From: Oscillospiraceae bacterium
GTDB taxonomy: Bacteria > Bacillota > Clostridia > Oscillospirales > Acutalibacteraceae
Reading direction: 5' to 3'
Length of the DNA: 32,860 bases
Assembly (NCBI GenBank): GCA_902792985.1
Contig: CADBBT010000012.1
Span: 1 to 32,860 of the forward strand
Shown: positions 14,524 to 28,646 of the stretch, piece by piece
Numbering within the stretch: the first letter of the stretch is position 1
Layout: each line of letters opens with the position of its first letter
Position numbers and translations under genes: made by a program
The notes under the pieces: model-generated
Databases searched by the model: none
The model's input: only the letters and a program-made list of their open reading frames with translations
Told to the model about the DNA's origin: nothing

Positions 14524-15393
14524 ATGAAACTGACGATGAAGGCAAACGCCAAGCTCAACCTGATGCTTGACATCTTATCAACGCTGCCGAACGGCTATCA
14601 CGAGCTGTTTATGGTCATGCAGTCGGTCGACCTTGCGGATGAAGTGACCGTTGCGCTGACCGACAGCAACAACATCACCCTCACCTGCAGCGATCCGAAG
14701 CTGCCGACCGATGAACGCAACCTTGCATACAAAGCAGCCGCTGCGTTTTTTAAGCATTTCGATCTGCCGCTGCAGGGCCTTTCGATCCATATTGAAAAGC
14801 ACATTCCTCAGGCGGCCGGGCTTGCCGGCGGCAGCGCGGATGCGGCTGCGGTGCTGCGCGCGCTGTTTGCGCTGTTTCAAAAAACGCCCGACGTGCGCAC
14901 GATCGCCGCGCTTGGCAGAAAAATCGGCTCAGACGTGCCGTTTTGTGCGCTGGGCGGTTTGATGCTCGCGCAGCACACCGGCACGCTTCTGTCGTTTTTG
15001 CCGGAACTGCCGCTTGGCACTTTTGTCCTCGTGACGCCGGATCATCCGGTTTCGACCGCCGCCGCATACGCTGCGTTCGATACTGCCGGCCGTGTGCGCC
15101 ATCCCGACCGCCGCGGTATGCTGGAAAGCATCTTGAACGGCGATGCCGACGGTGTCTGCGCGCGTGTGAACAATGTGTTTGAACAGTTCATCGATGTACC
15201 GGAACGTGTGCAGATCAAAGCTGTGATGCGCGCGCACGGTGCAAAGGCAAGCTGCATGAGCGGCAGCGGACCGACCGTGTTCGGCATGTTCGAAACCGAA
15301 GAGACGGCAGAATCTGCTGCAGCAGCACTGAAAAAGGAGTATCAAAACGTGTTTGTCTGCCGTGCGGCAGAGCAGGGGATCGAAACAATTTAA
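14524..15393 (+). CDS. ispE: 4-diphosphocytidyl-2-C-methyl-D-erythritol kinase
   Basis: The 289-residue GHMP kinase phosphorylates CDP-methylerythritol with ATP, the fourth step of the MEP pathway to isoprenoids. The N-terminal ANAKLNL gives catalytic Lys10, and GYHELFMVMQSVDLAD is typical of IspE. PQAAGLAGGSADAAA (95-109) is the ATP-binding glycine loop, GSDVPF supplies Asp137, and CMSGSGPTVFG is the third GHMP motif. The length is normal. GGAG precedes the ATG, and a strong promoter drives it alone. The gene implies use of the MEP pathway rather than mevalonate. No neighbouring gene belongs to that pathway, so it looks like an isolated housekeeping gene. Confidence 0.95.
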   Translation: MKLTMKANAKLNLMLDILSTLPNGYHELFMVMQSVDLADEVTVALTDSNNITLTCSDPKLPTDERNLAYKAAAAFFKHFDLPLQGLSIHIEKHIPQAAGLAGGSADAAAVLRALFALFQKTPDVRTIAALGRKIGSDVPFCALGGLMLAQHTGTLLSFLPELPLGTFVLVTPDHPVSTAAAYAAFDTAGRVRHPDRRGMLESILNGDADGVCARVNNVFEQFIDVPERVQIKAVMRAHGAKASCMSGSGPTVFGMFETEETAESAAAALKKEYQNVFVCRAAEQGIETI

Positions 15394-15409
15394 TTCAACA
15401 AGAATCGCC

Positions 15410-15445
15410 AAAAACCCCGGCTGCGGAGTGTTTCCACAGCCGGGG
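15410..15445 (-). terminator. Terminator between ispE and the giant gene, strongest on the minus strand
   Basis: Arms CCCCGGCTGCGGA (15415-15427) and TCCACAGCCGGGG (15433-15445) pair with one mismatch. The five A at 15410-15414 become a U tract for the minus-strand giant gene. The plus-strand side has only an interrupted T run, so it may also serve ispE weakly. Confidence 0.75.
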
Positions 15446-15466
15446 TCATGTTTGTTTTCGGGGGTG

Positions 15467-18400
15467 TTATCTTGCTTGAACCGCGTGGATGATCATGTGG
15501 ATGAACGCCACGATCCAGCCGATGACCGGAGTGTCCTCCCATTTTTCGTTGATGTCACACCAGGAGCAGCGACGCGGTGCGCTCGGCGTGGTGTTGCCGC
15601 CGTTGCCGGAATCATCCGTGGTCGGCTGATCGGTCGGTGTTTCTTCGTCCGGTTCCGTCACAGGCGCGCCGGTGGTCGTCATCGTGCCGAAGCCGCCGCT
15701 GCCCATGCCGTCGTTGAGGTTGAATTTACCGTAGGAGCTGCCGGTGCCTTGGTCACCGCTGTAGTTGACTGTCAGCTCATACGAGCCGTCGGAGAAGTGC
15801 GACTGGAACGCAACTTTACCTTCGGTGTCGGTGACGCCTTCCTCGCTCATGTCATTGCCTGTCAGGCGAACCTTCGCGCCGGAAAGCGCGACGCCTTTAT
15901 CGTTGCGCACATACGCCGTGAACAGTGTGTAGCTTCTGCCGCAGCCGAATTTGCAGGAGTAAACATCCCACTGAACGGATTGGTCAAAGACGTGGCCGCT
16001 GGCTGCCTCGTCGCGCACATAGTTGTGGTCAACGATCGGGAATTCCTGATCGCCCCGGATGAAGCCGCAGACGGAGCATTCCTCATACGCGGCGTAGCCC
16101 GGCTCGGTGCAGGTCGGTTCCTTGCCTTCCTTCGCAACAAACTTGTGTCCGGGTGCGGAACCGCTGAAGGTCTCCTCGCTTCTTGCGCCGCAGACGCAGC
16201 TCTTGACATAGGTCGGCGGGGTTGTGCAGTTGCCTTCATCGATCATGAACGCATCTTCTGCAACTTCTGTGAATTCGTGCGCGGCCGCGTTGCCGTAGGT
16301 GCCGCAGTTGTAGGTGCAGGCGAAAGCGTGCGTGCCGTCGCCGTTATCCTTGATCGCACCTTCAAAGATGTGCGGAAGCTGCGCGATCACGACGTCCGCG
16401 ATCTCGTTGTGGTTCTCGTCAAAGTCCTTGCCGCAGACAGAGCAGTGGAAGTGGCCGAGCGCGCCGGGCGCGGTACAGGACGTTTCAACCGCGGGGATCC
16501 AGGTGCCGTAATTGTGCCCGGGTGACGGGATGACATAGGTTTCGATCTCTTCCTTCGCTTCGTTGAAATATTTCTCACAAACGGAGCACTGATAGTAAGC
16601 AATGTTGCCGTCGCTCGTGCAGGTTTCGGACACTGCTGCGTGCAGCTCGCCGTAAGAGTGGCCCGACGAGGACGCGACGATGGAGGAAACCTCCTCCTTT
16701 GCCTCGTTGAAGTATTTCTCACAGACCGGGCAGTAATAATACGCGATATTGCCGTCTTCGGTGCAGGATGCTGCGGTTGCGGGCACAAGATCACCGTACT
16801 GGTGACCGGGCACTGCGCCTGTTGTTACATCGTTCGTGTCGGTCTGATCGCCGTAGGTCGCGGTGTAGGTCGTGTATGGTGCGGTTTCGCAGGTCGCGGC
16901 GTGGTCCTCGTGGCTCATCTGCGCCGCTTCATAGGTGATGTGTTCGCCGTTGTTTGCACAAACCAGCTTGGCCTGCGCGGTCGTGCCGTCTTCCGCCCAG
17001 ACGAAGGAGTCGAACGCGTAGGCGTGACCGGTGGCGGGGTCGCCAGCGATGCGGTTCGTGTCGGTGTGACCGTCGTAGCTCGCAATGTAATCGGTGTAGC
17101 CCGCGGCTTCGCATTCCGGTGCGTGAACGTCGGGCGTGATCGCCGCGTCGTAATAGGTTACATGGTTTGCATCCTTGCCGCAGACATATTTTGCTTTTGC
17201 GGTTTTGCCGTCTTCTGCCCAGACGAATTCGCTGAACGCGTAGGTGTGGCCGGTGGCCGTGCCTTCGTCCGTTACAGTCTTGCTGTCGGTCTGATCCCCA
17301 TAGGTCGCGGTGTAGACCGTGTAAGCGTCGTCTTCGCAGGTCGCTGCCGTGAACGCGCTGGACATTTCAGCGTCCACCTGCTTCGTGTGGCTCGCTTCGT
17401 TTCCGCAAACAAGGTTGACCTTTGCGGTCTTGTTGTCCGCCGCCCATGCGAAGGAAGCGAACTTCCATTCGTGGCCGGTCGCCGTGCCTGCGTCTGTTAC
17501 GGTCTTGCTGTCGGTGTTCGTGCCGTAGGTTGCGGTGTAGACCGTGTAAGCGTCGTCTTCGCAGGTCGCAGCCGTGAATGCGCTGGACATTTCAGCGTCC
17601 ACCTGACTCGTGTGGTTGCTGTCGTGGTCGCAGACAAGGTTGACCTTCGCGGTCTTGTTGTCCGCCGCCCATGCGAAGGAAGCGAACTTCCATTCGTGGC
17701 CGGTCGCCGTGCCTGCGTCTGTTACGGTCTTGCTGTCGGTGTTTTCGCCGTAGGTCGCGGTGTAGACCGTGTAAGCGTCGTCTTCGCAGGTCGCAGCCGT
17801 GAACGCGCTGGACATTTCAGCATCCACCTGCGTCGTGTGGCTCGCTTCGTTTCCACAAACAAGGTTGACTTTCGCGGTCTTGTTGTCCTCTGCCCAGGCG
17901 AAGGAGACGAACTGCCAGTTGTGATCGGTCGCCGTACCTTCGTCCGTCACGGTCTTGCTGTCGGTGTTCGTGCCGTAGGTCGCGGTGTAGACCGTGTAAG
18001 CGTCGTCTTCGCAGGTCGCAGCCGTGAACGCACTGGACATCGTTGCATCCACCTGCTTCGTGTGGCTCGCTTCGTTTCCGCAAACAAGGTTGACCTTTGC
18101 GGTCTTGTTATCCTCTGCCCAGGAGAAGGAGGCGAACTGCCAATTATGGTCGGTGGCGGTGCCTTCGTCCGTCACGGTCTTGCTGTCGGTATTCGTGCCA
18201 TAGGTCGCGGTGTAGACCGTGTAAGCGTCGTCTTCGCAGGTCGCAGCCGTGAATGCGCTGGACATTTCAGCGTCCACCTGTTTCGTGTGACTGCTGTCGT
18301 GGCTGCAGACAAGGTTGACCTTCGCGGTCTTGTTGTCCTCTGCCCATGCGAAGGAGGCGAACTGCCAATCGTGCTCGAGCGCCGTGCCGGTATGGATGAT

Positions 18401-21400
18401 CTGGGTCGTTGTGGTGTAGGTCGTGCCGTTATTCATAACGCTTGCCGTATAGACGGTGTAGCCGTCGTGTTCGCACACTGCGGGTGTATCCGCCGAGATG
18501 ACCGTCACTTCCGGTGTGATCGTATGATCGCAGCCGTCGCACTTGAACGTTGCGGTGATCTTGTTGTCCGCCGTCCAGGTGCCCCAGGTGGGCGCGCCGG
18601 TGTAGGTATGCGCGGTGATGCCGTCCTTTGCGTCGCAGTTTGCGCACTTGTTCCAGTGATTATTATCGTCGTATTGCGGAACGGTAAACTCGTGTGCGCC
18701 GGTCGCTTCAACCTCTTGGGTGTAGGTCGCGCCGCAGCCCGTTGCCTGGCAGGTATACGTTTTCACACCTGTGGTGGCGCAGCCGGGTTCCGTTGTGATC
18801 GTGCCGCTGTTCCAGTTGTGCGTCACAGTGCCGCCGTAGGTGCCGCAGCCGTTGACGCACAGGAAGGAGTGCGTGCCGTTTGCGCCGTTGCCGTCGCTTC
18901 TGACAGTGCCGGTGAAGTTGTGGCCACCCACGGTGTCCACAGTGCCGTAGCTTTCGCCGCAGGTGGCGCAGGTTGCCGCAGCAACGCAAGTTGCCGTGCC
19001 GCCGGCGCAGCTTTCCACGCCGACATTGACTTGAAGCGCACCGCCGATCTTGTTTTCAAGAATGCTGACCGTTGATTCGCGCTTGCCGAAGGTGAAGGTG
19101 TAATCCGTGCCCTGGGTCAGTGTCGTGTCGCCGGCTTTGACTTCAATGCTGTTTTTCAGATGGTGATCCGCGGCGGGAACGACACGAAGGGTGATCGCTG
19201 CCGCGCCGTCCACAGCTGTGTAATCACCCGAGGTGTTGTCTGCATAGGTGATTTGATAATTGTCGCGGGTCCAGTAGGCATAAAGCGGGATGGCTTTGTT
19301 CGTGCCAATCTGGGTATACAAATTTCTGCTTGTGAACGCGCCGGTTCTGTCGATGTACTGGGTGCCGTTGCCGTTTTGCAATGAGAAGTAGCCCTGGAAG
19401 GTGTAGCCCAGACGGGTGGGAACGGCGACCGAGCTCAGGGATGATGTGCAGCCGGTGTTGCTGTAGTAGCCGGGTTGTTCAAAACGGTAGTAAACATCGG
19501 AAGTGCCGCCGGTGCCGCTCGCTTTGTTGAGCGTGGCATGAATCGTGTGGGGCTTCCATGCTGCATAAAGAACGGTATCTTCGTTCTTGGTGAATGTACC
19601 GCCCGCAGCGTAATCGCCTGCAAGCGCATCACTTGATTCTGCCCAGCCGTCGAAATCGTATCCGTTTGGTACGGGTGTCGGCGAAGCGTCAGAAAGGGTG
19701 ATGCTTCGGTTGTAATACTTTTTCTGAGATGCAATAGATGCGGGCGAGGTAGCGCCGTTCAGATCGTAGCTGACCGTGTAAATGTTTTCCAGCGCAAACG
19801 GAATGGTACCGGTAGCGGATGTATAGTAGTATTTCACGCCGAACAAATAGGTCGTTCCGGCGGTAAATTCCTTTTCAAAACGGAACTGATTGCTTGACTG
19901 GCCGAGCTCGGAGATTCCTTGATCGTCGCTGGTAGCAGCAGATGTAACGTTGCTTGCCCAGGTTTGCGGATCGTATTGCAAAGCGAATGTATCCGTTGGA
20001 CTGGTTGCATAAAACACATAGTTTCTTGTTTCACTCGGGGTGAAGGAATAAAAATTGACCTGACCGCCGGCGCCGATTTCTGCGTTGCCGCTGGAATTCG
20101 GCGAAATCACCGTGGGATTGTTCGGATTCCAAAGCGCATAGTATGTTGTATCCGATCCCGGAACGGTAATAGTCGCGGAAGGAAGTTTAACACTTGAGTT
20201 TTGGGCTCCGTCTCCGCTGGTTGACCAGCCGAGCAGCGTATGGCCGGAGCGGGAAACGCCGGAATAGTTGAAGCTCATAGAGCTGTAGCCTTTTGGCAGC
20301 TTGTAAGATTTTGATATGCCGCCGGTCGCGTTGAAGGTGATGTTGACCGGCGTTGCAACGCGAGCGGGAAGACTGCCGGAATTGCTGCTGTCATAAGCAA
20401 AAACTCTAAAGAAATATGTTGTGCCGGATGTCAGCGAGATTTCATGATAAACTTGAAAGCTTGACATGCCAAGCATATTGATGATAGTTGAATCCCCATC
20501 GTCCTGACCGGTTGTAGAAGTAGTGTTTGTTCCCGTATACAGTTCGTATTTTGTGTCAAAAGAAGCATGTGTCAGAAAAAGGAAGGTGCCGGAGGAAGAC
20601 GGTGTGTATTTATACCAAACCGATTTCCCGGCTGCAAGAGAAGCCGTTCCGTCAGTGTCTATTGTCAATGTCGGGATCGCATTTCGAAGTGCGTTCACCG
20701 CATTGTCAATTGTGGTTTGGTTGCTTGTGGTATAGCCGTCGGCAAGGTCGGCAAGAATGCTGCTCGCCGTGTTCAGCGCGTTGACAAGAGCAGAGTTTGC
20801 GTCGCCGCCGTTTTCATAGATCCACTTTTTATGTGCGTATTCTGAACGCAGCGTGTTGGAATTCACGGCTTCGCAAGAAGTGTGATAGTACATTGTAATA
20901 TCATCGCCGCCGGCACTTCTGTTCAGGTCGGGACGTCCGCTGCCGGGGGAGTTGATGGCAATAGCGGAATACCAGCCGGAACCGTTGAAATAGGTGTTTC
21001 CTTCTTTGATGCTTGGCGGCAGAGCTTCTCCGTCAGAGGTGTCAATGGCTGTCACGCAGTCGATGGCAGGGCCGTAGTTGCGATCATAGGTGGCATACAG
21101 AAGAATGTCTTTGCCGCCTGCGCCTTTGTTCAGGTCGACAGCGCCGTCGGAATAAAGCTTTGGCGCATATGTGCTGTTGGCGCCGCTGTTGGCTTTCCAC
21201 CAGGTTACGGTTTTACCGTTGACGGTTGCCGAGACGGAGTTGTCGGATTTATAGTTACCCCATTCACTCGTTTCAATACCAACGGATTTACATGCGTTTG
21301 CCGCAGTCGGATCGTCGGTCAGCGTGTAGCCGAAATAGACATAGGAACCGCCGGCGTCTTCGTTCAGATCCTGATTGACCCACGCTGCGTTATGCGCATA

Positions 21401-21955
21401 GTCGTGAACCGCATTGTGGGAATCCGGGAATGTGCTGCCGCTGGAAAAACCCGACGGCTTGCACTGGCTTTGTGCGTCGCTTTTGGAACTGTCATAGGTC
21501 AACTGAAAGTTTTTCACAAATTTTGTGCCGGACGGGTAATAATACTCCGTGCTGTACGGCTGTGGGAAAGAAACGTAATAGTCGATCGCAGTATAATAAC
21601 TGCCGTTCACGTAAATATGCGTATGATACAAACCGCCCTCGTTTTTAAAATCACTGGTTTTGATCTCAACGCGGTAGTTGTAGGAGCCGCCGTTCGCGGT
21701 ATAACTGCCCGACGTCATATTGATCCACGGACATACATCCTGTCCGTTGTATTCCGTCCACGTCGGAGCCTGGATGGTTGAGACGGAGCCGGAATAATAG
21801 ACATACACATATGCGCCGGTACTGGTCGGCTCAACGGTGATGTTGCTTGCCGCAGATGCTTTCGTCGGTGCAACGAACACCCAAGCGCTCATGACCATCA
21901 ACACAGTCATCAGTACAGCGAGTGAACGTCGCAGTTTGATTGAATGGTTTTTCAT
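15467..21955 (-). CDS. Giant secreted multidomain surface protein (GBS-Bsp, MABP-like, PPC, InlB-type and Cys-rich repeats)
   Basis: The 2162-residue protein starts at the ATG (21955) behind GGAGGC, with a signal peptide ending near VAPTKASAAS (1-36). In order: a GBS-Bsp-like repeat (about 42-130), three DLNxxAGGxxI/VxxxY motifs (196, 274, 343) like an MABP beta-prism, a helical FIVAR-like segment (about 386-428), PPC-like beta domains (about 430-550 and 635-745), and interleaved InlB-type (Flg_new) repeats. Next come Cys-x2-Cys/Gly-His modules, including five near-identical 75-residue copies, then a CnaB-like domain (about 2005-2070), a Thr/Pro/Gly linker, and a tail with CSWC and a Gly-Trp/Ile-His helix. 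No LPXTG or enzyme motif is seen. It is probably cell-surface adhesion or matrix binding. The domain names are by eye, and the biological role is unknown. Confidence 0.85.
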   Translation of the reverse strand: MKNHSIKLRRSLAVLMTVLMVMSAWVFVAPTKASAASNITVEPTSTGAYVYVYYSGSVSTIQAPTWTEYNGQDVCPWINMTSGSYTANGGSYNYRVEIKTSDFKNEGGLYHTHIYVNGSYYTAIDYYVSFPQPYSTEYYYPSGTKFVKNFQLTYDSSKSDAQSQCKPSGFSSGSTFPDSHNAVHDYAHNAAWVNQDLNEDAGGSYVYFGYTLTDDPTAANACKSVGIETSEWGNYKSDNSVSATVNGKTVTWWKANSGANSTYAPKLYSDGAVDLNKGAGGKDILLYATYDRNYGPAIDCVTAIDTSDGEALPPSIKEGNTYFNGSGWYSAIAINSPGSGRPDLNRSAGGDDITMYYHTSCEAVNSNTLRSEYAHKKWIYENGGDANSALVNALNTASSILADLADGYTTSNQTTIDNAVNALRNAIPTLTIDTDGTASLAAGKSVWYKYTPSSSGTFLFLTHASFDTKYELYTGTNTTSTTGQDDGDSTIINMLGMSSFQVYHEISLTSGTTYFFRVFAYDSSNSGSLPARVATPVNITFNATGGISKSYKLPKGYSSMSFNYSGVSRSGHTLLGWSTSGDGAQNSSVKLPSATITVPGSDTTYYALWNPNNPTVISPNSSGNAEIGAGGQVNFYSFTPSETRNYVFYATSPTDTFALQYDPQTWASNVTSAATSDDQGISELGQSSNQFRFEKEFTAGTTYLFGVKYYYTSATGTIPFALENIYTVSYDLNGATSPASIASQKKYYNRSITLSDASPTPVPNGYDFDGWAESSDALAGDYAAGGTFTKNEDTVLYAAWKPHTIHATLNKASGTGGTSDVYYRFEQPGYYSNTGCTSSLSSVAVPTRLGYTFQGYFSLQNGNGTQYIDRTGAFTSRNLYTQIGTNKAIPLYAYWTRDNYQITYADNTSGDYTAVDGAAAITLRVVPAADHHLKNSIEVKAGDTTLTQGTDYTFTFGKRESTVSILENKIGGALQVNVGVESCAGGTATCVAAATCATCGESYGTVDTVGGHNFTGTVRSDGNGANGTHSFLCVNGCGTYGGTVTHNWNSGTITTEPGCATTGVKTYTCQATGCGATYTQEVEATGAHEFTVPQYDDNNHWNKCANCDAKDGITAHTYTGAPTWGTWTADNKITATFKCDGCDHTITPEVTVISADTPAVCEHDGYTVYTASVMNNGTTYTTTTQIIHTGTALEHDWQFASFAWAEDNKTAKVNLVCSHDSSHTKQVDAEMSSAFTAATCEDDAYTVYTATYGTNTDSKTVTDEGTATDHNWQFASFSWAEDNKTAKVNLVCGNEASHTKQVDATMSSAFTAATCEDDAYTVYTATYGTNTDSKTVTDEGTATDHNWQFVSFAWAEDNKTAKVNLVCGNEASHTTQVDAEMSSAFTAATCEDDAYTVYTATYGENTDSKTVTDAGTATGHEWKFASFAWAADNKTAKVNLVCDHDSNHTSQVDAEMSSAFTAATCEDDAYTVYTATYGTNTDSKTVTDAGTATGHEWKFASFAWAADNKTAKVNLVCGNEASHTKQVDAEMSSAFTAATCEDDAYTVYTATYGDQTDSKTVTDEGTATGHTYAFSEFVWAEDGKTAKAKYVCGKDANHVTYYDAAITPDVHAPECEAAGYTDYIASYDGHTDTNRIAGDPATGHAYAFDSFVWAEDGTTAQAKLVCANNGEHITYEAAQMSHEDHAATCETAPYTTYTATYGDQTDTNDVTTGAVPGHQYGDLVPATAASCTEDGNIAYYYCPVCEKYFNEAKEEVSSIVASSSGHSYGELHAAVSETCTSDGNIAYYQCSVCEKYFNEAKEEIETYVIPSPGHNYGTWIPAVETSCTAPGALGHFHCSVCGKDFDENHNEIADVVIAQLPHIFEGAIKDNGDGTHAFACTYNCGTYGNAAAHEFTEVAEDAFMIDEGNCTTPPTYVKSCVCGARSEETFSGSAPGHKFVAKEGKEPTCTEPGYAAYEECSVCGFIRGDQEFPIVDHNYVRDEAASGHVFDQSVQWDVYSCKFGCGRSYTLFTAYVRNDKGVALSGAKVRLTGNDMSEEGVTDTEGKVAFQSHFSDGSYELTVNYSGDQGTGSSYGKFNLNDGMGSGGFGTMTTTGAPVTEPDEETPTDQPTTDDSGNGGNTTPSAPRRCSWCDINEKWEDTPVIGWIVAFIHMIIHAVQAR
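17252..18376 (-). repeat. Five tandem 225-bp in-frame repeats in the giant gene
   Basis: Copies start (minus strand) near 18376, 18151, 17926, 17701 and 17476, each 225 bp and encoding 75 residues with the core AKVNLVC, SSAFTAATCEDDAYTVYTA and DSKTVTD. Two degenerate copies follow toward 16800. The near identity at DNA level implies recent duplication or gene conversion. Confidence 0.92.
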
Positions 21956-22251: not shown

Positions 22252-23148
22252 ATGGTAAGCAAAATCAAACGCGGATCGCGGCGCATGTTTGCGGTCGCCC
22301 TCTCGGTGCTCATGCTGCTGAGCGCCTGGGTGTTCGTTGCGCCGGAGACGCTGCCGAAAGCCAGTGCGGCGAATACTGCACTGACAGACTGGCCGGATAG
22401 TGGTGACCTGAACGGAAAATACAAGGTTACCTCTAACAAATCGGTCGCTGCAGGCTCTAACAGAAAGATTACTGGTAACACAGTTATTTATATCGCATCT
22501 GGCGCGACCTTAACTGTTACTGGTGGCGGTGGCTCTGGAACGAGTGGCGGTAACCCCGGCATCTTTGTTCAAAGCGGATATACACTTGTCATCACTGGAC
22601 CGGGTAAGCTTGTTGCAACCGGCGGCGCCGGCGCGAAAGGTTCAAATGGTAGCGGCGGCGGTTCACCTGATGGCGGCGCCGGCGGCGCCGGCGGCGGTGG
22701 TGGCGGTGCCGGTATCGGCACCAGCGGCGGCGGCGGTGGCGCCGGCGGCGCAACAAGAACCGGCCGAGATCATAATGGTAATGGCGGCAGCGGCGGCAGC
22801 AACGGCGGCAACGGCGGCACCATCGATATTATGGACAGCATTACAAGCAGCAACTATTCAAATAATTCCGGCAGTACCGGCGGCGGCGGCAGTGGCGGCG
22901 GCGGTACGTCCGGCAGTTCCACCAGCCGCGGCGGCGGCGGCGGTGGCGGCGGCGGCGGCGTGGCAATAAGGGACGTGGCGGTGCCGGAGGCGCTGATAAC
23001 GGTTCCGCAGGTACCAACAGTGGTTCACGTAATTCCGGCGGCAGCGGCGGCGGCCATGGTGGCAACGGTTCGATTACCGTGCATCGAAGCGACGGCAGTA
23101 CTTCTGCCAATGGTGCCCCTGATTTTGCAAAAGGCACTGTTAGTTTAA
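22252..23148 (+). CDS. N-terminal part of a frameshifted giant secreted protein: signal peptide and glycine-rich region
   Basis: The reading frame opens at the ATG (22252) behind GCAGGAGG with a signal peptide (SAWVFVAP, then LPKASA) almost identical to that of the divergent giant protein. Residues 40-115 are beta-rich (IYIASGATLTVTG, GIFVQSGYTLVITGPG) and look like a short parallel beta-helix, followed by a glycine-rich region (about 120-236). From about 22960 the frame turns to an Ala/Val/Pro sequence unlike the rest and stops at 23148. The natural continuation lies in the -1 frame, which joins the long downstream reading frame. This is thus the 5' end of one gene of about 2130 codons, split by a single-base deletion. 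A start 18 bp earlier (TTG) would overlap the ribosome site. Confidence 0.75.
   Translation: MVSKIKRGSRRMFAVALSVLMLLSAWVFVAPETLPKASAANTALTDWPDSGDLNGKYKVTSNKSVAAGSNRKITGNTVIYIASGATLTVTGGGGSGTSGGNPGIFVQSGYTLVITGPGKLVATGGAGAKGSNGSGGGSPDGGAGGAGGGGGGAGIGTSGGGGGAGGATRTGRDHNGNGGSGGSNGGNGGTIDIMDSITSSNYSNNSGSTGGGGSGGGGTSGSSTSRGGGGGGGGGGVAIRDVAVPEALITVPQVPTVVHVIPAAAAAAMVATVRLPCIEATAVLLPMVPLILQKALLV
22957..22964 (+). other. Frameshift point in the GGC tract of the giant gene
   Basis: The sequence reads GGCGTGGCAATAAG. Inserting one G after 22960 gives GGC GGT GGC AAT AAG and joins the glycine-rich frame to the downstream frame (GNKGRGGAGGADNGSAG). Everything on both sides then reads as one protein. It may be a true mutation, a phase-variable state or a sequencing/assembly slip in a GC-rich repeat. 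Confidence 0.8.
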
Positions 23149-26100
23149 AGTCAAACGGTGGTACAGATGGCGCAGTAACAAGCGTTAGCTGCTCAATTGG
23201 TTTTAATATGAGTTCTATTGCGCAGGCAAATTTGCCGAAGCGTACCGGTTACACCTTCGAAGGCTTTTATACAGAGGCCTCCGGCGGAACAAAGTATTAT
23301 AATGCTAATGGTACGTCTGCGCATGTGTTCGATTATGCAGGAATGGATCTTTACGCGCATTGGTCCATCAACTACAGCAATCTGACTTTAAAGCCAAATG
23401 GCGGTTCCATGTCCATTGTTAACCAAAACAATGAGACGCAGACGATTACCTCAAATTACACTTATAATAAGTCGTATCAATCGCAAATTACAGGAATCAA
23501 TCAACCCACACCTCCCAGCGGAAAGCACTTTACCGGCTTTACCTTTGGCGGCGATCAGAACGGTACGTGGAATGCAACAAGCTTCAGTTATACGTTCGGT
23601 CCGTTACAGGGCAAGACCGACACCCTGACCGCGAATTATGCGGTTCACTCTCATACGAAGGATGAAGACGGCGACGGTATAGCAGACAATGCGCCGACCT
23701 GTACGATGCAGGGCTTCTGCGATGTCTGCGGTGTGCCATACGAAAACGCACTTGGACATAAATTCGGTACAGAGTTGTCAAAGAATCGGGCAAAAGCAGA
23801 TCCAACCTGCGTTGTTTCTGCAGCAACCTGTACTGATGACGCAGTGTACTACTTCAAGTGCGAACGCTGCGATGTTACCACGAAAAATGTTCCCGATCAG
23901 CAATGGCAGGGACAAACCTGGATAGATACCGGCACTGCAACCGGACACCATTTCACAGTGGCATCTACGGATTACGTGAAGGAAACCGCGAACTGCCTGC
24001 ACGGCACGATTTATTATAAGACTTGCCAAGGCTGTGATATCAGTCCGATTGGTCTTTCAGATGCAACATGGACGGACGCTACTGATAAATTGGACCACAA
24101 TTATACCGGCGATTATCAGGCGCTTTCCGATAACAAGCACAACCGCGCCTGCGTCAATGGCCCGTGCGGAACTTACGGCATTGGCAGCACAGAAGGGGCA
24201 AGTGAAGCTTGTACGCCTGCAGATAATTTTGTCGTCGGCGATTACGTCAGCGATGATAACGAACACTGGGTAAAATGCCAGTATTGTTCTAACCTGACAT
24301 CAAACAAGGTCGGTCACACCTGGGACTACGCGAACGCTGTCTTTAACTGGGACGGCTATGCTTGCCCGAATGCGACAGTGACCTGCCCGGTCTGCGCAAA
24401 GACAAAAACAGTTACGACAACAGTGACGCACCAGACCACTGTTCCGTCGGGATGCTTGACAGAAGGAACTGAGCTTTATACGGCAAAGTTTACGATTAAT
24501 GGAACGGATTATACGGCCACCAAGGAAGAAGTCCTGGGTCAACTCGGTCACGATTGGCAGAATCCGGTCTACACCTGGAGCGCAGACAATATGTCTGTTA
24601 CTGCAAGACGAGAATGCTCGCGCTGCGCAAATACAGACCCCGACCACGGCGTCGAAACAGAGACAGTCGGTACCACCTACGAAGATACATTGATTCCGAC
24701 CTGTACTACAGAGGGAAACCGCCACTTTACATCTGCGGAGTTCACCAACACAGCATTCAGTGTACAGTCAAAAGATGTTACGCTTGCAAAGGACCTTGAC
24801 AACCACGATTTCACCGTGCAGAATGACGGTGCGGCATATCTGAAGAGCGCCGCGACCTGCGAAGGCAACGAGGTTTACTACTTCAAGTGCTCCCGCTGCG
24901 AAAAGTGCACCAACGACAACAAGGTCAACAGCGAAGGCACTTACGGCGGCAACACATGGACCAAGGCTGATACCGCGCTCGGCCATGAGTTTACCGGCGA
25001 TGCGGTCAACGCTGCCGCCGGCGAGCACTTCTACAAGTGCGTACGTTTTGACGACTGCGAATCCTACGGCGTGAAGAAAGACGGCGTTTGGAAGAAGAAC
25101 GAAACCGAAAGCTGCTTCGGCGGCGAAGCGACCTGCACAGAAAAGGCGATCTGCGAAGCCTGTAATACAGCTTACGGCTCCTTTGATTCGAACAACCACC
25201 TGTTCACTGCGGAAAGCACCGCGGCGACCTACCTGAAGACGCCTGCAACCTGCGAAGATAACGCTGTATACTATTACAAGTGCGCACGCTGCACAGCGAG
25301 CACGGCGGATTACAACGGCGAGACCTGGATCAGAACCGGCACCGCCAGAGGCCATAAGTACACCGGCGATTACAACGCGCTTGTTGTTGACGGTGAACTC
25401 AAACACAACCGCGCCTGCCGCAACGGCTGCGGAACCTTCGGTCTGGAAGTCAACGGTGTTCATACGAAGAATGCATCCGAAGCTTGTACGCCCGGCGATA
25501 TGCAGTTTGATGCAACCGGCCACTGGGTACAGTGCGTCTACTGCACCAACTACACTACGCCGAAAGCGAACCATGATCCCGTGAATGAAACTCCGTACAC
25601 AACGGATAACAACCAGCACTGGAAGACCTGCTCCGTTTGCGGATGGTTCACAGAAGCAGCCGGCGACCACGATTTCCAGTGGGTCATCGACAGCGAGGCG
25701 ACCTGCACCGAGAACGGCGTTCGCCATAAAGAGTGCCCGGTCTGCCATATGAAGAAACAGGAAGGCACGGTCATTCCGAAGCTCAACCACGACTGGAGCG
25801 ATGTGACCTACACCTGGAACGAGGATAACACGCAGGTCACTGCGACCCGCACCTGCGCTCGCGACGCAAGCCATGTGGAAACCGAGACCGTTTCGGTCAG
25901 CAAGACGACCAAGCCTGCGACCTGCGTTGCCACGGGCTCCATCACCTACACCAGCAAGAGCTTTACAAACAGCGCGTTCTCCGTTCAAATCAAGACAGAG
26001 ACACTGGAGATCGATCCGCTGAACCACAACAACAAGATCGGTCCGGTTTCGCTCAAGAAAGCGACCTGCACCGTGGACGGCGTGAAAGCGCACTACTATT

Positions 26101-28646
26101 GCTCGGCGTGCCAGAAGAACTTCTCCGACGCTGCCGGCACAGCGATCGTCACGGATGATGATCTGAAGATCGCGGCGCGCGGCCACGACTGGGATGCAGG
26201 CACGGTCACAAAGGAAGCAACCTGCACCGAAACCGGCGTTTTGACCTATAAGTGTCAGAACAGCACTGCAACAGAGTTCTATGCTGCTTGCAATGAAACT
26301 TACACGGAAGACATCGAGATCAACCCGGCGAACCACAATGGCCATCTCGCTTATGTGGAGATCGTCAAGGGCAGCTGCTTCGCCGACGGCGTAAGAGCGC
26401 ACTGGTACTGCGACGCCTGTAACACGAAGTTCAGCGATGAGCTCGGTACACAGGCGACCACGGATGAAGCGCTGAAGATTCCGCAGCGTGAACATTCCTG
26501 GAATGCGGGCGAAATCACGAAGGAAGCGACCTGCGCCGAAACCGGTCTCAAGGTTTACACCTGCACCTGCGCTGCAGACGATGAATATGTTGCCTGCACA
26601 CAGACGCGTGACGAAGTCCTTGAGAAGAACCCCAATAACCACGTCGGTGTCATCGACCCCGAAAATCAGAGTGAGCTGCGCGGCTACGTCCGCGAGAGCT
26701 GCTCGGCCCCCGGTTATTCCGGCGACCGTTACTGCCTTGGCTGCGGCGAGCTGCTTGAACAGGGCGCTGTCATCCCGACCCAGCCGCATACCTACACAGC
26801 GGAAGATATCACCGTTGAAAACGCGTTTGTGAGCGCAGCCACCTGCGTCAGCCCGGCAATCTATGTCAAGAGCTGTACGTATTGCGGCGTGCTTGATACC
26901 GACAGAACCAACACCTTCACCTATGGCGAAGTTGATCCGGCCAACCACGCGGCAGAGCTGACCTTCACGGCTTATAAGGCGACCACCTGCCTTGCCGCCG
27001 GTAACGAAGCGTATTACACCTGCCCGGCATGTAACTTCAACTTCTCCGACGCAGAAGGCCTCGACAAGATGGACAACGTTGTGATTGCCCAGCTTGAACA
27101 CAGCTACACCGGCGAAGCGGCCGATCAGGGCGACGGCACCCATAAGTGCCTGTGCGTCAACGGCTGCAACGAATACGGCCCGGCGATCGAGCACACCTGG
27201 AGTGAACCCACAACCAACGAACCGACCTGCACAAGAGACGGCTCTGCGGATTATACCTGCACAGCGTCCGGATGCACGGCAACGAAGCACGACGTTCTGC
27301 CGATGCTCGGCCATGATTGGCAGAAGCCGACCTATAAGTGGGCGGATGATTATTCCTACTGCATCGGTACGAAGATCTGCGCGAACGACGTCAAGGGCGA
27401 CGGCACTGCGGACCACACCATCACCGAAAAGGTTGAAAACATTGTTCGCACCATTCCCGAACAGCCGACTTGCCAGAAGGGCGGCAGATATGTTTACACC
27501 GCGACCTTCACCAATTCGGCGTTCACCGAACAGTACACCTCCGAAGTGATCCCGATGGGTACACACGTGCTCGTGAAGATCGACGCGGTTGCGCCGACCT
27601 GCTCCGAGGACGGCAGCATCGAATACTGGATCTGCTCCGCTTGCCGCCATTACTTCTCCGACGCGGACGGCGCGAACGAGATCACGCTTGCCTCCACGTT
27701 CGTTCCGAGAGTCGGCCATGATTACAGCGGCCCGGTCAAGGACAACAAGGACGGCACGCACAGCTATGCATGCATCTATGAATGCGGCTCCTACGGCAAG
27801 AAGACGGCGCACGCGTTCAACCGCGAAGTTGCCAACGATCAGTATCTTGACGTTGCAAGCGACTGCGTGACACCGGCGACCTACTTCTACAGCTGCGAAT
27901 GCGGCGCGAAGGGCACGAGCACCTTTGAAGGAACACCGCTCGGCCACAACTTTGTGGATCACGAGGGCAAAGACCCGACCTGCACCGAAGCCGGCTACAC
28001 AGCGCACAAGGTCTGCACACGCTGCGACGCGGCAGAAGGCAAGAGCGAGATCCTTGCGCTCGGCCACGGCAAGTTCCTGTTCGATCATGAGAAATCCGGC
28101 AGAGTGTATGATGGCTCCTTCGAGTGGGCAACTTACAGCTGCTCCAGAGGCTGCGGCGAAAGCTACACGCTGTTCACCGTTCATGCAAAGGATGCCAACG
28201 GCAAACCGATCGTCGGCGCGAATGTCACGATCGATGACGGCAACGGAACCACTGCGACCGGCATCACCGGCAATGACGGTTCCTTCACGTCCGACGTCCA
28301 TTTCCATGACGGCGAATACAAGATCAACATGAGCTACACCAGCGGCGACTCTGTGATGACCACAAGCGGCGATGTCCGCGTGTCCGGCGGCAGAGGCAGC
28401 GGCGGCACCGGTGCACTTGCTCCGACGAGTTCCGGTGATTCCTCCGGCTCCGGTCAAGGCTCCGGTTCCGGTTCCACAACGCCGACGAATCCGTCCGGCG
28501 ACAATTCCGGCGGAAACTCCGGTGGTTCCGGCAGCTCGTCCAGCTCCTCCGGCGCTTGCCGTTACTGCGGCGAGACGCACAGCGGCCCGTTCGGCTGGTT
28601 GATCCAGCTCATCCACAACATTCTGGCTGCCTTCAAGGGCAAATAA
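23079..28646 (+). CDS. Main part of the frameshifted giant secreted protein: InlB-type repeat, Cys-x2-Cys modules, CnaB-like domain, tail motif
   Basis: A GTG at 23079 would give 1855 residues. The native frame continues upstream to about 22962, so this GTG is probably not a start. In order: the glycine-rich end, an InlB-type repeat ending DLYAHW, a second beta-rich unit, then about twenty modules with Cys-x2-Cys and Gly-His corners (for example YYFKCERCD, KCSRCE and CSACQKNFSDA). Variants carry GDGTH...CVNGCNEYG. A CnaB-like domain (28161-28370) follows, then a Gly/Ser linker (28390-28550) and a tail with CRYCG, GPFGWLIQLIH and a final basic GK. No sortase motif is present. It is probably exported and retained at the surface. 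Whether it is expressed depends on the frameshift. Its layout parallels the divergent giant gene, so they are likely paralogues. Composition changes near 24800. Confidence 0.8.
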   Translation: MHRSDGSTSANGAPDFAKGTVSLKSNGGTDGAVTSVSCSIGFNMSSIAQANLPKRTGYTFEGFYTEASGGTKYYNANGTSAHVFDYAGMDLYAHWSINYSNLTLKPNGGSMSIVNQNNETQTITSNYTYNKSYQSQITGINQPTPPSGKHFTGFTFGGDQNGTWNATSFSYTFGPLQGKTDTLTANYAVHSHTKDEDGDGIADNAPTCTMQGFCDVCGVPYENALGHKFGTELSKNRAKADPTCVVSAATCTDDAVYYFKCERCDVTTKNVPDQQWQGQTWIDTGTATGHHFTVASTDYVKETANCLHGTIYYKTCQGCDISPIGLSDATWTDATDKLDHNYTGDYQALSDNKHNRACVNGPCGTYGIGSTEGASEACTPADNFVVGDYVSDDNEHWVKCQYCSNLTSNKVGHTWDYANAVFNWDGYACPNATVTCPVCAKTKTVTTTVTHQTTVPSGCLTEGTELYTAKFTINGTDYTATKEEVLGQLGHDWQNPVYTWSADNMSVTARRECSRCANTDPDHGVETETVGTTYEDTLIPTCTTEGNRHFTSAEFTNTAFSVQSKDVTLAKDLDNHDFTVQNDGAAYLKSAATCEGNEVYYFKCSRCEKCTNDNKVNSEGTYGGNTWTKADTALGHEFTGDAVNAAAGEHFYKCVRFDDCESYGVKKDGVWKKNETESCFGGEATCTEKAICEACNTAYGSFDSNNHLFTAESTAATYLKTPATCEDNAVYYYKCARCTASTADYNGETWIRTGTARGHKYTGDYNALVVDGELKHNRACRNGCGTFGLEVNGVHTKNASEACTPGDMQFDATGHWVQCVYCTNYTTPKANHDPVNETPYTTDNNQHWKTCSVCGWFTEAAGDHDFQWVIDSEATCTENGVRHKECPVCHMKKQEGTVIPKLNHDWSDVTYTWNEDNTQVTATRTCARDASHVETETVSVSKTTKPATCVATGSITYTSKSFTNSAFSVQIKTETLEIDPLNHNNKIGPVSLKKATCTVDGVKAHYYCSACQKNFSDAAGTAIVTDDDLKIAARGHDWDAGTVTKEATCTETGVLTYKCQNSTATEFYAACNETYTEDIEINPANHNGHLAYVEIVKGSCFADGVRAHWYCDACNTKFSDELGTQATTDEALKIPQREHSWNAGEITKEATCAETGLKVYTCTCAADDEYVACTQTRDEVLEKNPNNHVGVIDPENQSELRGYVRESCSAPGYSGDRYCLGCGELLEQGAVIPTQPHTYTAEDITVENAFVSAATCVSPAIYVKSCTYCGVLDTDRTNTFTYGEVDPANHAAELTFTAYKATTCLAAGNEAYYTCPACNFNFSDAEGLDKMDNVVIAQLEHSYTGEAADQGDGTHKCLCVNGCNEYGPAIEHTWSEPTTNEPTCTRDGSADYTCTASGCTATKHDVLPMLGHDWQKPTYKWADDYSYCIGTKICANDVKGDGTADHTITEKVENIVRTIPEQPTCQKGGRYVYTATFTNSAFTEQYTSEVIPMGTHVLVKIDAVAPTCSEDGSIEYWICSACRHYFSDADGANEITLASTFVPRVGHDYSGPVKDNKDGTHSYACIYECGSYGKKTAHAFNREVANDQYLDVASDCVTPATYFYSCECGAKGTSTFEGTPLGHNFVDHEGKDPTCTEAGYTAHKVCTRCDAAEGKSEILALGHGKFLFDHEKSGRVYDGSFEWATYSCSRGCGESYTLFTVHAKDANGKPIVGANVTIDDGNGTTATGITGNDGSFTSDVHFHDGEYKINMSYTSGDSVMTTSGDVRVSGGRGSGGTGALAPTSSGDSSGSGQGSGSGSTTPTNPSGDNSGGNSGGSGSSSSSSGACRYCGETHSGPFGWLIQLIHNILAAFKGK

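Follow-up and report, generated by a model that had tools for sequence, protein, structure and literature searches.

Four-Cys/His C-terminal tails on many unrelated exported proteins of an Oscillospiraceae bacterium, a putative metal-clasped amphipathic helix

The window, that is the whole stretch of DNA analysed here, covers 32,860 nucleotides of contig CADBBT010000012.1 (assembly GCA_902792985.1, Oscillospiraceae bacterium) and contains two divergent genes encoding giant proteins, giant A and giant B (Table 1). According to domain searches their neighbours in the window include ispE, GH77, aconitase and a DUF6198 protein, and a Ca-ATPase and a transporter were further named by eye. A long-tail gene adjoins ispE here (window 14524-15568) and in G028:C33, and the two lie ~3 kb apart in G011:C7.

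Giant A contains a signal peptide, a GBS_Bsp-like stretch below cut-off, an InlB-type repeat above the curated cut-off, Cys/His repeats and a stretch resembling the C-terminal stretch of giant B (both seen by eye), a Thr/Pro/Ser/Gly linker and a tail of the long type. Positions 15467-15580 on the minus strand encode the final 37 codons and the stop of giant A, and the protein ends with ...APRRCSWCDINEKWEDTPVIGWIVAFIHMIIHAVQAR. Giant B has a signal peptide similar to that of giant A and ends with ...SGACRYCGETHSGPFGWLIQLIHNILAAFKGK before its stop at 28646; its InlB-type repeat is just below the cut-off, and so are CarboxypepD_reg and Big_1 matches before the linker. The giant B gene is frame-shifted (ORF 22252-23148, then ORF 23079-28646), with the switch within a Gly-rich, GGC/GGT-rich stretch at window 22866-23148, and may reflect a sequencing or assembly error or a real shift. 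The homologue in G028 has the same tail and an uninterrupted frame of 2062 aa.

Table 1. Positions of the two giant genes and of the Cys and His codons in their tails (window coordinates)
Feature	Position	Strand	Details
Giant A	15467..21955	-	2162 aa; ATG at 21955; AAGGAGG upstream
Giant A, long-type tail	15470..15568	-	C-x2-C; Cys codons 15566-15568 and 15557-15559
Giant A, helix H-x3-H	15497-15499, 15485-15487	-	within 15470..15568
Giant B	22252..28646	+	divergent from giant A; own ribosome site; signal peptide at 22252
Giant B, short-type tail	28557..28643	+	C-x2-C-G-x2-H at 28557-28559, 28566-28568 and 28578-28580
Giant B, helix His	28614-28616	+	within 28557..28643

Both giants end in Cys-x2-Cys followed by Gly-Trp, at a spacing of 12 residues in giant A and 8 in giant B, which is inside the 8-14 residues given by the initial annotation of this locus. 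That annotation had also placed the tail after a Thr/Pro/Ser/Gly linker lacking LPXTG, which holds for both proteins; the final 50 residues of 192 proteins from stretches of this genome (24 with tails and 20 other secreted ones among them) contained no LPXTG-like motif ([LN]P.[TS][GNA]). What it missed is that each tail has four conserved Cys/His and that there are dozens of other carriers. Giant A presents two Cys and the H-x3-H of its helix, and giant B two Cys, one His in the loop and one His in the helix.

These two arrangements define two tail types, short (C-x2-C-x3-H-x11-13-H) and long (C-x2-C-x19/22-H-x3-H). When 10,546 stop-to-stop frames of the gathered loci were searched with profiles of both types, 105 matches with E up to 0.01 were obtained, and 93 of them with at least 28 bits, profile rows included, were retained as strong matches. 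Among the 12 matches below 28 bits, ten are chance-like and two (L136, L140) look real. All four Cys/His are complete in 93 of 93 strong matches (65 of 65 short, 28 of 28 long), although this conservation is partly built in because the profiles reward Cys and His. The spacing between the two His of the short type is x11 in 61 tails, x12 in 3 and x13 in 1, and that from Cys to His in the long type is x19 in 27 and x22 in 1. The either/or choice of the fourth ligand is less affected by the profiles: of the 91 tails that are unique, 65 carry the loop His but lack the helix H-x3-H, 26 carry H-x3-H but lack the loop His, and not one has both or neither. Such mutual exclusion of the two places for the fourth ligand is easier to reconcile with a metal site of four ligands than with a disulphide. 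The initial annotation had left a thiol- or a metal-dependent module side by side, and the metal is thus favoured.

The pattern recurs in six more long tails, found in G512 and G535, but is itself demanded by the expression used to print them; for a seventh long-type locus of the same check, a weak match, the expression printed nothing. Six short tails of this genome were read after the 93 had been counted; 4 of 6 fit the pattern and 2 of 6 depart from it (L232 on C59, and L234 on C6 near a contig end), one having C-x-C and one having Asp in place of the second Cys. The tail with Asp belongs to a 119-codon frame near a contig end and keeps both His. The four tail Cys/His are conserved rather than invariant.

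Generally, the tail is the end of the protein: 91 of 93 strong matches are within 13 residues of the stop or at the end of the sequence, and 2 are not, which qualifies the initial annotation's question of whether the motif occurs mid-protein. In L132, 53 residues of a frame that looks ATPase-like by eye come after the tail, and in a metallophosphatase (L129; L138 7305-8435, G542) the module is directly after the signal peptide, near the N-terminus of the mature protein, so the module need not be C-terminal. As a separate observation, a 778-aa gene of this genome (L165, C3) ends with ...FYRLFHIHQYCECGEAHY, in which the helix comes first and C-x-C-G-x2-H follows, as if the order were reversed. 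In L152, L165, L168, L151 and others, a repeat with His-Thr and Asp/Asn-Gly-x-Cys-x2-Cys-Gly was seen by eye to precede the tail, and it is possibly another Cys/His metal site.

This genome contains 38 tail places, 6 of the long type (profile of 6 tails; E up to 0.1) and 32 of the short type (profile of 23 tails; E up to 0.05), and all 38 were read as sequence. These matches exceed what chance would give, with best E values of 3.8e-24 for the long and 3.6e-18 for the short profile, profile members included, and the giant A tail as sole query reaches 7 places with E up to 10. In 79 relatives including this genome, at E up to 0.1, the long profile matched 21 genomes and a two-sequence short profile 22, several of these matches being weak and chance-like. 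Short tails are also abundant, with 11 to 34 matches, in nine other congeners (G001, G004, G010, G012, G013, G016, G019, G022 and G028). In 150 genomes of the family, the short profile matched 23 at E up to 0.05, clearly only in G000, G499, G516, G542, G535 and G046, and the long profile matched 4 at E up to 0.01, clearly in G000, G512 and G535.

In wider samples, 6 of 398 phylum genomes (E up to 0.01) and 4 of 394 order genomes (E up to 0.001) had a match, clear only for this genome in both; with 20 candidates scored per genome, lone or diverged tails can be missed, and real tails in G006, G031, G046 and G062 reached only E 0.002-0.05 with the first short profile. On reading, the weak order-level matches L185 and L187 are not tails, and L186 (G700) was left uncounted: it conforms to the pattern, but 56 residues before its frame of 108 codons ends. 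The single pattern match in phage contigs is at the start of a 229-aa protein that looks endonuclease-like by eye, and is not a tail. The tail is present in relatives, according to the profile searches, and the similar tails mentioned in the initial annotation exist in part of the genus and at good scores in six other sampled genera of the family (short type in G499, G516, G542, G535 and G046, long type in G512 and G535), but did not appear clearly in the phylum and order samples.

The distribution is patchy and, judged from ispE, mostly tracks ancestry. By full-length ispE matches, 7 of the 9 other tail-rich congeners are nearest to this genome (64-93%), and tail-rich G019 (58%) and G022 (57%) fall among tail-poor congeners; in this comparison two genomes had no match and two had partial matches at 61-63%. 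These ispE identities show that the phylogenetic profile is confounded by ancestry, and we rejected it as proof of a dedicated enzyme.

By their sequences, the passengers appear secreted and diverse, with GH25, CHAP, papain, M6, LRR and InlB repeats. In 20 tail proteins scanned (15 of this genome and 5 from G019, G542 and G499), 13 had a Pfam match with E up to 0.001 and 7 had none. GH25, LRR_5 and DUF6273 were each matched twice, one DUF6273 protein also having a C39-like domain and the other InlB repeats, and single matches were to CHAP, transglutaminase, papain plus lectin, M6 and metallophosphatase. An InlB-type match and a Big_1/Big_3 match were below the cut-off. By a simple rule, signal peptides were found in 22 of 26 complete candidates of this genome versus 43 of 152 other genes, and in 20 of 23 candidates versus 43 of 148 other genes in other genomes. 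The four misses in this genome are giant B (signal in the other frame), a 239-codon frame, L169 (signal at an alternative start) and an L171 frame which fits the expression by chance.

In the tail codons of orthologue pairs, silent change exceeds amino-acid change: pN/pS is 0.11 (6 pairs, 195 codons) and 0.16 (5 pairs, 164 codons), for pairs that lean to conserved ones because the regular expressions that retrieved them had been made to suit both tails. GH25 homologues (55-100% identity) of this and 9 other short-tail-rich genomes carry the tail in 10 of 10 cases, with Cys, Cys, Gly, His, Gly and the helix His identical in all ten and variation at 21 of 27 positions. An eleventh GH25 match, a 36% homologue in G026, is without the tail. 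Likewise, papain-like homologues with 35-39% identity (G009, G020, G007, G029) are without it, and the closer ones in tail-rich genomes have it in 5 of 5.

The helix of the tail is amphipathic. Compared with shuffles of the same residues, the mean z of the helix moment is 1.55 for the short type (48 of 57 above 1) and 2.84 for the long type (21 of 21), and, if His is taken as positive, the last 8 residues have a net positive charge in 61 of 65 tails of the short type and 23 of 28 of the long type. In 61 short tails the helix His is at position 19, with mostly Gln, Lys or Gly at 16, Ser, Asn, Lys or Arg at 20, Trp or Lys at 13, mostly Ala at 23, and nearly always Ile, Leu, Val or Phe at 14, 15, 17, 18, 21, 22 and 25. 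Polar residues beside the helix His and a greasy other face suggest a knuckle clasped on the His side with the greasy face left free. Single-sequence structure models had pTM of 0.40 and 0.35. For the giant A tail two helices are predicted, 7-17 and 19-37. Cys6 and Cys9 stand where the first begins, the second contains His29 and His33, and a hairpin about residue 18 would unite these two pairs; the giant B model has a single helix at 16-31, over the hydrophobic part. Foldseek gave no match of the long-type model in PDB.

Some secreted proteins have an amphipathic helix end without the Cys/His part, including L164 (806 aa), L171 (493 aa) and L160 (1772 aa), and such ends were also noticed in L149, L135 and L213, a papain-like protein of G019. 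In the stretches of this genome, picked for their tail genes, an amphipathic-end criterion set after the sequences had been seen holds for 6 of 20 other secreted versus 7 of 115 cytosolic proteins (Fisher p 0.004), a small sample in crude classes where at least one "secreted" entry (L165, 428 aa) looks by eye like a cytosolic enzyme. The criterion holds for only 14 of 24 tails. In the same stretches, F+W in the last 24 residues distinguishes other secreted from cytosolic proteins (p 2e-6), and the helix moment itself does not (p 0.27). If helix-only ends are counted in, the helix would be the common part and the clasp an addition, and these ends are possibly the parent class of the tail.

Pfam and NCBIfam searches of the tail gave no credible match, which answers the initial annotation's question about an already described domain. 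Curated NCBIfam tag models were matched at E up to 1 by none of P0001, P0002, the 23 short or the 6 long tails, and the match of one tail to TIGR00814, a transporter model, at E 0.019 was put down to chance. Sub-threshold matches were RUBY_RBDX (E 0.062), the PaaD zinc ribbon (0.089) and the Nudix zinc ribbon (0.12), and CPHCGQVH matches 3-hydroxyanthranilate dioxygenase at E 1.6. Sequence searches of PDB with the tails gave best E values of 1.6 and 1.1. No description of this tail was found in the open-licence literature, literal tail strings included. From the above, the tail is a real C-terminal module which was not found described in these searches.

What the module does can be read in several ways. 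We tentatively prefer the reading, which we think quite possible if a little short of probable, that the tail is a zinc-clasped amphipathic helix retaining exported proteins at the membrane or surface. Another reading, unlikely in our view though with appreciable weight, takes the tail as a recognition signal of the LPXTG, PEP-CTERM, GlyGly-CTERM or MYXO-CTERM kind, which a membrane enzyme would cut off while transferring the passenger onto a lipid or a polymer of the wall. The motif with a hydrophobic stretch and a basic end, the signal peptides, and the many copies per genome, sporadic and on unrelated passengers, as described for GlyGly-CTERM (PMC3237569) and MYXO-CTERM (PMC11980579), speak for it. 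Moreover, the best 19-residue stretch exceeds a crude transmembrane threshold (KD 1.6) in 20 of 28 long tails, so the long tail could span the membrane. However, only 14 of 65 short tails exceed it, the conserved His is inside the helix, and one instance of the module is behind a signal peptide. The partner genes also argue against it. With subfamilies pooled, PF04203 (sortase) and PF02517 (CPBP) each occur in 34 of 34 congeners whether these are tail-rich or tail-poor, so that neither family as a whole discriminates between them or explains the tail, and both were rejected as partners; tail-rich G001 and tail-less G009 and G030 have a single PF04203 match each. The initial annotation proposed a check for linked conserved genes, and no neighbour family was seen to recur widely around the tail genes. 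In 41 stretches, with neighbours outside the window clustered and partly read by eye, the only widely common family is that of the tail/repeat proteins themselves (42 genes, 33 with tails, in 28 stretches), no other family is in more than 5 stretches, the top one looks by eye like a helix-turn-helix regulator, and in genomes that have one or few short tails, seven stretches read by eye showed nothing enzyme-like next to the tail.

The aromatic, Gly-containing and strongly conserved core, together with its modularity and its linker tether, would also suit a dockerin-like docking module whose partner at the cell surface is a protein or polymer instead of lipid. We consider docking quite unlikely: no partner candidate was found, helix-only tails coexist with the clasped ones, and the hydrophobic face swaps residues freely but stays hydrophobic, which suits lipid over a specific partner. 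Cys-x2-Cys is common in disulphide chemistry, and the initial annotation proposed a thiol role, so a redox element, a disulphide or half of an iron-sulphur site, with the His being structural, has to be weighed as well. That is very unlikely, since the His are as conserved as the Cys and trade places between loop and helix, and the tail with Asp for Cys keeps both His, a change that might leave a metal site intact but would abolish a disulphide.

The preferred zinc-clasped helix would work as follows. After export, the two Cys and two His would bind one metal ion, most likely zinc, which would clasp the Cys-x2-Cys knuckle onto the polar side of the short amphipathic helix. This would leave its Ile/Leu/Phe/Val face uncovered, and basic residues lie close to the terminus. 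The greasy face might then lie in the cytoplasmic membrane on its outer side, or in some comparable greasy surface, and the passenger would be held there through the Ser/Thr/Pro/Gly linker. Here we infer the metal, its identity, the membrane contact and the retention. The sorting or anchoring signal suggested at first is supported by a conserved C-terminal module that many unrelated exported proteins carry at the position of a wall-sorting signal, and for which retention at the surface is our interpretation. A bolder version, which we regard as unlikely, is a zinc-gated anchor as a new kind of bacterial surface-retention tag: extracellular zinc would lock the helix in a membrane-binding shape with no processing enzyme, and dozens of exported enzymes and adhesins in one lineage could be held or released together with changes in zinc and redox state.

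With 38 tail places in one genome, the tail may mark out much of a lineage's surface proteome and could serve as a recognisable signal for finding more such proteins, and the either/or fourth ligand offers a natural experiment. If it is true that the helix binds lipid only with metal, the tail would differ from the sorting tags compared here in being an anchor that can be switched. Among the closest known systems is MYXO-CTERM with myxosortase (PMC11980579), which shares with the tail the C-terminal place, dozens of copies per genome, a conserved Cys, a hydrophobic stretch, a basic end and a signal peptide. Unlike it, most short tails are without a clear transmembrane helix, and in place of a Cys motif they have a pair of Cys and a pair of His; moreover, there is no matching NCBIfam model, and the CPBP family is present whether tails are or not. 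GlyGly-CTERM with rhombosortase (PMC3237569) and PEP-CTERM with exosortase (PMC1569441) are likewise short homology regions on otherwise unrelated exported proteins, with sporadic distribution and homologues having other ends, but the tail differs from both in its motif, metal-site pattern and amphipathic helix, and no cognate enzyme for it emerged from the sortase, CPBP and neighbour comparisons.

For the helix, E. coli PBP5 provides an example: without its C-terminal 18 residues it loses strong septal localisation (PMC2909392). PBP5 is also an exported protein with a short C-terminal amphipathic helix needed for proper localisation, and by this analogy the amphipathic, mostly positive ends of the tails would fit lipid binding. 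However, in PBP5 the element is the last 18 residues of one protein and not a multi-passenger module, and the accessible part of that report mentions no Cys/His clasp. The C-x-Y-C-G knuckle of the tail resembles zinc knuckles and rubredoxin-like ribbons, but the tail takes at least one ligand from a hydrophobic helix instead of a second knuckle, and it is carried by exported proteins.
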